From Candidatus Sumerlaeia bacterium (lineage in GTDB: Bacteria > Sumerlaeota > Sumerlaeia > SLMS01 > JAHLLQ01), in the NCBI GenBank assembly GCA_019634695.1, contig JAHCAW010000013.1, positions 1 through 64,000 of the forward strand: DNA of 64,000 bases. Direction: 5' to 3'. Below, one piece after another: positions 694 to 62,299 of this stretch. The stretch's first letter is position 1. Each line of letters starts with the position of its first letter. The notes beneath the pieces are model-generated. The model saw nothing but the letters and a program-made list of their open reading frames with translations. It was not told where the DNA came from and did not search any database. Made by a program: the position numbers and the translations under genes.

Positions 694-713
694 CGGAGAG
701 CGAACGACGGGGA

Positions 714-898
714 GACAACCACGGAAGGAACGAAGAGTGACAACCACGGAAGGAACGGAAAGAACGGAATAGATTGAATGGGAGTTGCGCTCGGCGAGGA
801 GCCCCCATCGAAAGCTCGATAGGGCGAAGGTTGGCGGGACTTGATCGCTTCGTCTTCGCCTTGAGTTCCGTCCCTTCCGTGTTTTCCGTGGTCATCTC
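714..898. repeat. Fold-back repeat, copy 1, upstream of the GxxExxY gene
   Basis: The left arm has two tandem CCACGGAAGGAACG-type units (714-737 and 738-770). The right arm (836-898) is their imperfect inverted counterpart ending TTCCGTGGTCATC, so the segment can form a long hairpin of about 31 bp around a roughly 65-nt centre. The right arm matches 1408-1470 at 52 of 63 positions in direct orientation. The repeat lies between the stop of the phosphoesterase and the RBS of the GxxExxY gene. Confidence 0.85.
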
Positions 899-917
899 CA
901 TTCTTCAGGAGTTGATC

Positions 918-1313
918 ATGAGCAAGCTGATTCACGAGAGCGAGACGTATCAGATCCGCGGCACGATCTTTGAAGTGTATCGAGAGCAGGGCTGTGGCTT
1001 TCTGGAGCCGGTCTATCAGGAGTGCCTCGAGATCGAGTTGGGACTGCGCGGGATTCCCTTCACGGCGCGGCAGCAGGTGCCGCTGGCTTACAAGGGACAC
1101 CAGTTGAAGCAGGCGTACATTCCTGACTTCATTTGCTTCGAGCGCGTCATCGTGGAGATCAAGGCCGTCGATGCCTTGACGGATCAGCATCGTGCCCAGC
1201 TCTTCAACTACCTGAAGGCGACGGGTCTCCGGGTCGGCCTTCTGGTCAACTTCGGAGCCCATCCCGAGGTCGCCATCGAACGTGTTGTCTATGGAAGCGA
1301 TGAAGCAGGGTGA
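918..1313 (+). CDS. GxxExxY family protein (PD-(D/E)XK nuclease-like)
   Basis: A 131-residue protein of the GxxExxY family (TIGR04256). The family signature is seen as GFLEPVYQECL (GxxExxY, near residue 29), and a PD-(D/E)XK-like core as YIPDFIC followed by VIVEIKA (Asp, Glu, Lys). The family is predicted to be a small nuclease or DNA-binding protein; its biological role is not established. ATG 918 is chosen because CAGGAG lies 6 bases upstream and the conserved family begins here. The stop TGA is also the first bases of the downstream repeat copy (TGACAACCAC). The gene stands alone between a phosphoesterase and a lipocalin, flanked on both sides by related fold-back repeats, so it looks like cargo of a small mobile unit. 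Confidence 0.85.
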   Translation: MSKLIHESETYQIRGTIFEVYREQGCGFLEPVYQECLEIELGLRGIPFTARQQVPLAYKGHQLKQAYIPDFICFERVIVEIKAVDALTDQHRAQLFNYLKATGLRVGLLVNFGAHPEVAIERVVYGSDEAG

Positions 1314-1470
1314 CAACCACGGAAGATACGGAAGGAACGGAAGGAGTGAGTGGGGTCATGTCGGGATGGCGATGACCTCTTGGCGATCCCAACGTGTCGT
1401 GATCCACGGGACCCGATCGCTTCGCCTTCGCCCCGAGTTCCGTTCCTTCCGCGTATTCCGTGGTTGTCCC
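1311..1470. repeat. Fold-back repeat, copy 2, downstream of the GxxExxY gene
   Basis: The left arm (1312-1342, GACAACCACGGAAGATACGG and on) pairs with the right arm (reverse complement of about 1438-1468) at about 27 of 31 positions. It has the same orientation as copy 1, so the pair forms direct repeats around the gene. Against copy 1 the right arms differ at 11 of 63 positions, of which 10 are transitions. Confidence 0.85.
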
Positions 1471-1546: not shown

Positions 1547-2119
1547 ATGCGCGCTCCTGTCGATTCAACTCTGCAGAACCATTTCCAACGCGTGCCGGTT
1601 TCCCTTTTGGGTCTGCTGACAGTCGGCGTTCTCGTGCTGGCCACGGGTTGCACGGGCGTACCGAAGGGCGTTCGGCCGGTGGACAGCTTCGATGCGGACC
1701 GGTATCTCGGCAAATGGTACGAGATCGCCCGGCTGGACCATTCGTTCGAGCGTGGGCTGTCGCGCGTGACGGCCGAGTATGGTCGACGTGACGACGGGGC
1801 GATTTCCGTGGTGAACCGCGGCTACGATGCGCGCCGCGACCGATGGAAGGAAGCCCGCGCCGTCGCACGCTTCCGCGGCGATGAGTCCGTCGCCAGCCTG
1901 CGCGTCACGTTCCAGTGGCCCTTTTCGGGCGGCTATCACGTGATCGCGCTCGATGACGCGGAGTATCGTTGGGCGATGGTCAGCGGCCCGACGCGCGGTT
2001 ACCTGTGGATCCTGGCCCGCGAACCCCAACTGGATCCGCCGATTGCGGAGAAGCTGGTCGCCGAGGCGCGCGCGCTGGGCTACGCGGTGGACGAGTTGAT
2101 CTTCGTCGAGCACGACTGA
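1547..2119 (+). CDS. blc: Outer-membrane lipocalin (Blc-like lipoprotein)
   Basis: A 190-residue lipocalin. A signal peptide with lipobox LATGC places the lipidated Cys at residue 35, so the mature protein should be an envelope lipoprotein. The lipocalin signature GKWYEIARL follows at about residue 55, and the barrel continues with ITAEYG-like, FQWPFSGGYHVIALD and YLWILAREP strands. Members of this family bind fatty acids or lysophospholipids in the periplasm or outer membrane. GTG 1544 directly precedes ATG 1547; either could start translation. It is followed after 5 bases by the convergent response regulator gene. It was probably next to the phosphoesterase before the GxxExxY unit arrived, but nothing links their functions. 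Confidence 0.9.
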   Translation: MRAPVDSTLQNHFQRVPVSLLGLLTVGVLVLATGCTGVPKGVRPVDSFDADRYLGKWYEIARLDHSFERGLSRVTAEYGRRDDGAISVVNRGYDARRDRWKEARAVARFRGDESVASLRVTFQWPFSGGYHVIALDDAEYRWAMVSGPTRGYLWILAREPQLDPPIAEKLVAEARALGYAVDELIFVEHD

Positions 2120-61731: not shown

Positions 61732-61762
61732 GGTTGTTAGCTGTTGGTTGTTAGTTGTTGGT
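61732..61762. repeat. Simple-repeat arm, moxR side of the four-helix-bundle gene
   Basis: GGTTGTTAGCTGTTGGTTGT and continuing TAGTTGTTGGT: tandem GTTGTTAG/GTTGGT units. It is the inverted partner of 62262-62299; the best 23-base block matches at 20 of 23 positions. It is A+T-rich against a G+C-rich background. Confidence 0.8.
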
Positions 61763-61779
61763 CTCCAAGAATGGGAGAC

Positions 61780-62214
61780 TTACTCCCATGGCTCGTTGCG
61801 GTTCTCTTGATCTGCAGATCGGGGGGTGCGTTGCTGAACGACTCTCAGCGTGGCTCGGGTCCGAGACTGAAGCGCGGTGAGCATCCTCATGATCTCATTG
61901 ATTCGGGATCGGAAGTCGACGTGCAGTTCGCGGGGGAGATAGCCGAGGTCAGTGGTAAGGAGCATCAAGTACTTTGCCTCCGAGGCGGATCCGAGGGCAA
62001 TCTGCAGGAATCGAGCGAAATCGTTGTTCCCGCCACGCCCGCATCCTTCAGCGATGTTGGTGGCTATCGAGGAGGTGGCGCGCCTGAGTTGGGAGGTCAA
62101 ACCGAAGCGCTCCTCGGCCGGAAACGACGCGGAAGCCTTGTAGACCGCCAACGTGAGGTCATGTGCTTTGCGCCAGACGATCAGGTTCTCAAAGTCCTGC
62201 ATTGATCGCGTCAT
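61780..62214 (-). CDS. Four-helix-bundle protein (S23/avd-like, TIGR02436)
   Basis: A 144-residue protein of the four-helix-bundle family first seen in rRNA intervening sequences. The family consensus is clear: FENLIVWRKAHDLTLAVYKA, then FPAEERFGLTSQLRRATSSIATNIAEGCGRG, then FARFLQIALGSASEAKYLMLLTTDLGYL. The accessory variability determinant (avd) of diversity-generating retroelements has the same fold, but no reverse transcriptase or variable repeat is present here. ATG 62214 or ATG 62202 may start it. It sits between the VWA gene and moxR with inverted simple-repeat arms on both sides, suggesting it arrived as an independent unit. Confidence 0.9.
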   Translation of the reverse strand: MTRSMQDFENLIVWRKAHDLTLAVYKASASFPAEERFGLTSQLRRATSSIATNIAEGCGRGGNNDFARFLQIALGSASEAKYLMLLTTDLGYLPRELHVDFRSRINEIMRMLTALQSRTRATLRVVQQRTPRSADQENRNEPWE

Positions 62215-62261
62215 CCTGCCTGAAGTTGCTCGGCATCCGCTACCATCAGCTCCACCTGCCT

Positions 62262-62299
62262 ACCAACCACTAAGCACTAACAACCAACCACTAACAACT
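62262..62299. repeat. Simple-repeat arm, VWA side of the four-helix-bundle gene
   Basis: ACCAACCACTAAGCACTAAC continuing with CAACCAACCACTAACAACT; inverted relative to 61732-61762. It begins 7 bases after the stop of the VWA gene (reading on the minus strand). Confidence 0.8.

Follow-up and report, generated by a model that had tools for sequence, protein, structure and literature searches.

The window, that is, the whole analyzed stretch of 64,000 nucleotides, begins within a gene for a calcineurin-like phosphodiesterase (positions 1 to 693, + strand; its 5′ part lies beyond the window), which is matched weakly by cyclic-nucleotide phosphodiesterase models and whose orthologues are kept in related genomes, with neighbors other than those found here. 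The next host gene, located at 1547 to 2119 (+), encodes a lipocalin of the Blc type. Between them lies a GxxExxY gene (TIGR04256/PF13366) of 131 codons at 918 to 1313 (+; ATG at 918, TGA at 1311–1313), accompanied by two fold-backs, both of which are composed of tandem CACGGAAnn words. Fold-back copy 1 (about 739 to 899, +) has arms at 739–769 (GACAACCACGGAAGGAACGGAAAGAACGGAA) and 866–899, separated by a loop of approx. 96 nt (the repeat search placed its inverted arms at 732–769 and 866–903), while the arms of copy 2 (about 1309 to 1471, +), at 1309–1342 and 1438–1471, are 88% complementary. An extra, outermost half-arm (GGAGACAACCACGGAAGGAACG; 711 to 733, +) is inverted to 1456–1471 (16 nt, 94%; repeat search).

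An earlier note on this DNA had described the gene as enclosed by two direct copies of a fold-back, and the repeat search, the folding scores and the framing score all agree with this description. The single-strand folding of copy 2 gave z = −6.9, with none of 200 shuffled sequences folding as well; that of copy 1 was moderate when compared with shuffles (z = −2.4), and the framing score of the locus (defined below) exceeded those of all 100 shuffles. Direct repeats run across the two fold-backs (734–769/1307–1342, 89%; 835–899/1407–1471, 83%), which means that they share the same orientation, as the note had stated. The stop codon of the gene was likewise correctly placed by the note: TGA 1311–1313 is contained in the start of the first arm of copy 2 (GGTGACAACCACGG). 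The reported lack of a transposase also held, since PF13366 was the only family detected between the arms.

The protein encoded in the window is a member of TIGR04256 (140.9 bits, cut-off 35) and PF13366 (141.7 bits, cut-off 22); the domain search revealed PF13366 only and no HUH/Y1 transposase (Pfam01797). The residues E30, D70, E80 and K82 are present, and they are invariant in 50 homologues. An AF2 model (pLDDT 93) matched the Cas4 protein SSO0001 (E 8e-5); its matches to exonucleases of the lambda type and to Holliday-junction resolvases of archaea were weaker. By its modeled fold and the conserved E-D-ExK residues GxxExxY is a PD-(D/E)XK nuclease, its activity being predicted. T7 endonuclease I was considered as a relative and set aside, because the PDB sequence search gave E 0.9 for it, which is not evidence, and this search returned no significant relative. 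PADLOC assigned the protein to no defence family (best E 0.02), and tblastn against 50,697 phage records gave no match. Two contigs classed as viral in IMG/VR (L171 and L172) carry GxxExxY units with arms. The gene was found in 49 of the 99 sampled genomes, in up to 8 copies per genome. The papers searched for GxxExxY, PDDEXK_3, PF13366 and TIGR04256 yielded no account of repeats or mobility; an earlier description may exist elsewhere.

To score the framing of GxxExxY genes, the 250 nt preceding the gene were compared in inverted orientation with the 200 nt following it, and the best match was rated relative to Markov shuffles, and a locus was called framed at p<0.02 and a score of at least 13. 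In a sample that includes 80 named loci from many phyla, 75 of 113 GxxExxY loci were framed, compared with 1 of 158 neighboring genes on the same contigs; about a third of the GxxExxY loci had no detectable arms. The fold-back words of the window thus have counterparts beside the GxxExxY genes of many phyla, at about two thirds of the loci, which bears out the link between gene and repeat drawn in the note. We found, beyond the note, that the gene, as a rule, has inverted arms immediately on either side, and that full direct copies of a fold-back are a less common variant, which nevertheless recurs (e.g. L010, L045, L115, L120, L142, L163, L165). The arms mostly consist of about three tandem words of 8–10 bp, usually 9 bp: the best tandem period was 9 in 38, 10 in nine and 8 in four of 73 arms (51/73 in total, vs 4/73 when shuffled). 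The units are about 450–500 bp long (median 505 bp), and in 54 of 70 cases the arms of one locus matched each other better than they matched the arms of close relatives. The same architecture is present in isolates and finished records, such as the single contig of G085, Bacteroides finegoldii TSDC17.2-1.1 and Methylomonas koyamae.

Several individual loci deserve mention. The unit of B. finegoldii (L346, NZ_OY725952.1), which has CACAGAGGACGCAGAGGACACGGAG arms, lies directly behind the radA stop codon; the record, of 24.8 kb, is labelled as a plasmid and carries genes of chromosomal type. Old, vertically kept loci were seen in Opitutales (L093, L100, L103, L107) and in Geothrix (L145, L152), the latter two being without arms. 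At L053 and L057 the unit is followed by a repeat of the 3′ end of the host gene that precedes it, possibly a trace of the unit's arrival; the repeated ends are those of a gene for a BMC-type shell protein (64 nt, few mismatches) and of an S4-domain gene resembling tyrosyl-tRNA synthetase (42 identical nt).

In the genome from which the window derives (G000), the word CCACGGAANNNACGGAA occurs 11 times, compared with no occurrence of the reversed control pattern and none of the word itself in any of the five nearest relatives; the further copies are mostly intergenic single arms and not hairpins. Two more GxxExxY genes are present in G000, each near a different word, namely a GCAAAGCCGCGAAG-type word on contig C124 (L010; framing weak when taken alone, p 0.04) and a CACAGAGGACACAG-type word on C97 (L011; likewise weak alone, p 0.16). 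All three words of this genome occur together within one intergenic stretch (L004). An array of several fold-backs of approx. 170–200 bp, with GCAAAGCCGCGAAG arms, surrounds a second GxxExxY gene (L361; G000:C124:1-6500). For the window's own copy neither an empty site nor a duplicate was found.

Both were found for other members of the family. Genome G014 carries one unit twice (L316 and L318) at unrelated sites, with 96% identity over 462 bp, 448 bp of which extend from arm to arm. The homology starts 14 nt before the left arm and stops at the right arm's outer edge, and the flanks are unrelated; it was this duplicated unit, with homology ending at the arms, that gave substance to the "mini mobile unit" proposed in the note. 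In G004, a 447-bp unit is inserted between two genes which we take, from our own reading of the translated flanks, to be lexA and nifS. These genes are uninterrupted in G003, which is of the same genus, and in G001, of the same family, where they are separated by a short spacer without such a word. A second unit of G004, of 453 bp, splits a gene pair that is adjacent and without insert in G003, G006, G000, G001 and G005. One insertion suffices to explain each of these cases, which would otherwise require several scarless losses. Orthologous sites that lack the gene therefore exist for two family members, so that the situation which would have spoken against the note's proposal, a gene always present at its locus, does not apply. 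No target-site duplication was visible at the L316/L318 or G004 insertions, whose empty sites have diverged too far for one of a few bases to be excluded; a mechanism of the DDE type is, for lack of a clear duplication, not favored. At the level of sequence comparison, mobility is demonstrated for the family, in the form of discrete units which are duplicated at unrelated sites and which, of a set of orthologous intergenic sites, some have and others lack.

Copies without the gene, the occurrence of which the note had raised, take the form of dispersed hairpins and of decayed or scar copies. Both G012 and G018 contain dispersed gene-less hairpins of approx. 65–75 nt that are built of the same word. 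In G018, a GxxExxY gene of the window's clade (L311) carries the word of these hairpins; G012 contains 22 copies of the word, yet it is absent from the three GxxExxY genes of this incomplete assembly. At G004:C279 the GxxExxY gene is internally deleted and both arms are kept. Candidate empty sites were rejected in three cases: G004:C279 with respect to G003:C165, since one old insertion is common to both; G099 and G102 with respect to the unit of G085, since a remaining 3′ end of GxxExxY identifies them as deletion scars; and L110 with respect to L109 (Phenylobacterium), since the L110 site has other, solitary arms. The closely related genomes G085 and G099 are 97% identical around the unit and differ in single arms. 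In stretches of approx. 400 kb from each of these two genomes (L264–L303), mixed intergenic word repeats (CTCTTGCC, CACAGAG) were observed, and the CACAGAG-type pattern gave 27 matches per 400 kb in G085 and 8 in G099, the stretches being only partly alignable.

The words proved to vary together with the protein. In Mantel tests of protein identity against arm similarity, which were confined to framed loci, r was 0.41 for 73 loci (permutation maximum 0.12), 0.40 for 100 loci (0.092) and 0.385 for cross-phylum pairs only (0.245), figures obtained with short, repetitive arms and with phylum labels taken from record titles. Dissimilar proteins of one genome had an arm similarity of 0.30, near the background of 0.23 for different genomes, whereas similar proteins of different genomes shared words (0.43). 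Since the words differ within a genome and are shared between similar proteins across genomes, the word travels with the protein and not with the host. The clade of the window protein (GCGFLE..YQEC) is associated with CACGGAA/CACGAAA in Verrucomicrobiota, Planctomycetota, Desulfobacterota, Alpha- and Gammaproteobacteria, GPGLLES.YE proteins with CACAGAGG/CACGAAGG, and two other protein clades with CAGATTACG and GATGAACGC, respectively. A word that changes in step with the protein suggests that the protein may recognize its own ends. One GxxExxY gene departs from this rule, having arms with a word of the four-helix-bundle type, AGGGTTCGAGGGTTCGAGG (L342; G067:C28).

Genes of the S23p/four-helix-bundle family (PF05635) form a second framed group, with 25 of 28 scorable loci framed at p≤0.04. 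Their arms belong to a class of 7–9-bp words (AGTGGCGAGTGG, AGGCAATAGG etc.) different from those of GxxExxY. The window itself contains such a gene (61876–62190, − strand; PF05635, 127.5 bits) within the span 61732–62298, with inverted GTTGTTAGTGGTTGG-type arms at 61732–61761 and 62276–62298. Because PF05635 genes are framed in the same manner, hairpin-ended units need not carry a GxxExxY nuclease, and the two proteins would either, in parallel, each drive an element class of their own or both be carried along by a common process. The IVS of Coxiella, a selfish element of 428 nt which lies in 23S rRNA and carries an S23p ORF (PMC4990558), may belong with the S23p group.

We conclude that the feature in the window probably belongs, as a single copy, to a family of selfish mobile elements of very small size. 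It seems likely that such a unit works in the manner of REP/RAYT, with an unrelated enzyme, a PD-(D/E)XK nuclease, in place of an HUH or DDE transposase. The nuclease would bind the word repeats of its own unit, as duplex or as extruded hairpin, and would cut at or near the arms; this cutting might start the copying of the unit into new intergenic sites, and gene-less hairpins with the same word could be copied along as passengers. A more far-reaching proposal, to which we give slightly less than an even chance, is that GxxExxY units constitute a distinct class of autonomous elements, in which a single PD-(D/E)XK nuclease of approx. 130 aa is the whole mobility enzyme and recognizes tandem-word hairpin ends. 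The specificity for the word would have diversified with the protein, many phyla would have been populated with autonomous units and gene-less hairpins, and a parallel S23p/four-helix-bundle class would use other words.

The main competing explanation, in our opinion unlikely, assumes that a host process or another enzyme moves hairpin-ended units, and that GxxExxY is a cargo which gains from its position, for instance by protection or regulation. The unrelated PF05635 genes, framed likewise by other words, would fit such a scheme, as would the turnover of single arms and gene-less hairpins independently of the gene; however, nothing in it calls for the co-variation of word and protein clade that is seen across phyla and within genomes, and GxxExxY is the only gene between the arms. 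The co-variation of word and protein favors, without proving, a driver role of GxxExxY. If the units were instead to spread by homing in the strict sense, the nuclease would cut gene-less fold-backs of its own word and recombination would copy the gene into the loop, the hairpins being the targets. In G018 fold-backs of one word do occur both with and without the gene, and at L053 one of each kind stands in tandem behind duplicated host-gene ends. Yet the empty sites of relatives, at which the word of the unit would be expected as the target of a homing endonuclease, are without a word of this class both at lexA–nifS (G003, G001) and at the two-gene pair (G003, G000, G001, G005, G006), and the arms appear to arrive with the insert. 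We regard this mechanism as improbable, and the "repeat-homing" of the earlier note fits less well when taken strictly.

It is very improbable that GxxExxY is an ordinary host gene spread by ordinary horizontal transfer, with RNA hairpins as terminators or regulators and a flank similarity due to selection for RNA structure. The units are intergenic and often follow a stop codon directly, as behind radA in B. finegoldii, and their arms pair well, but flanks of this kind are almost absent from the neighboring genes, the duplicated unit and the empty sites end at the arms, and tandem-word arms are unlike terminators. Rfam gave no family at gathering score; a match to a miRNA family, far below that score, was read as chance hairpin similarity. 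Chance or an assembly artefact can hardly be credited: G000 and several other genomes are indeed drafts in many contigs, probably metagenome-assembled, but isolates and finished records have the same architecture and the framing statistics are strong.

GxxExxY is a common protein of unexplained function. Should it be a mobility enzyme, these elements of approx. 450 bp would rank with the smallest autonomous mobile elements known, a large class of intergenic repeats of the CACAGAG/CACGAAG/CAGATTACG type would be explained, and the evolution of specificity could be studied in a naturally occurring series of nucleases, each with its matched DNA word. The question is directly testable, because the matching arms provide an immediate substrate for every member.

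Known systems resemble these units in part. The TIGR04256/PF13366 family libraries, of which the window protein is a clear member, describe the protein only. Genes for Rpn (YhgA-like, PF04754), which belongs to a different Pfam family, are not known to be framed by repeats. Rpn is likewise a small PD-(D/E)XK nuclease linked to DNA mobility (PMC5350276). The 23S rRNA IVS is also a selfish unit, of about 430 bp with one small ORF, but is located inside rRNA and encodes a four-helix bundle, whereas the window unit lies between protein genes, with an ORF of PF13366 and not S23p; relatives of the IVS outside rRNA also have word arms. Insertion sequences of the DDE type and MITEs share terminal inverted repeats and gene-less derivatives with the GxxExxY units, in which neither a DDE enzyme (PF13366 alone was found between the arms, and the units are too short to hold a further gene) nor a clear target duplication was seen.

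The closest parallel is offered by REP/REPIN-RAYT (TnpA_REP; PMC2817692, PMC3116915, PMC8266576). RAYT genes are flanked by inverted REPs (PMC2817692), and REPINs are repeat doublets which form hairpins (PMC3116915). The two systems have in common a nuclease gene of low copy number, on both sides of which stand inverted palindromic repeats that are also dispersed in the genome, gene-less dispersed repeats with hairpin-forming doublets, and repeats and protein that are compared as co-evolving. Roughly one RAYT gene in three is directly associated with BIMEs, and RAYT genes flanked in this way resemble the double fold-back of the window, with its complete hairpin on each side of the gene. RAYT is, however, an HUH tyrosine transposase, whereas GxxExxY has a Cas4-like PD-(D/E)XK fold; a REP is one imperfect palindrome headed by GTAG, whereas the arms described here are tandem 8–10-bp words that begin with CCAC/CCGC and show no GTAG/CGTC head. 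The copy numbers seen for the CACGGAA word, 11–29 per genome, are a further difference. Proof that the nuclease is the mobility enzyme would entitle these units to a class apart from the REP/RAYT kind.
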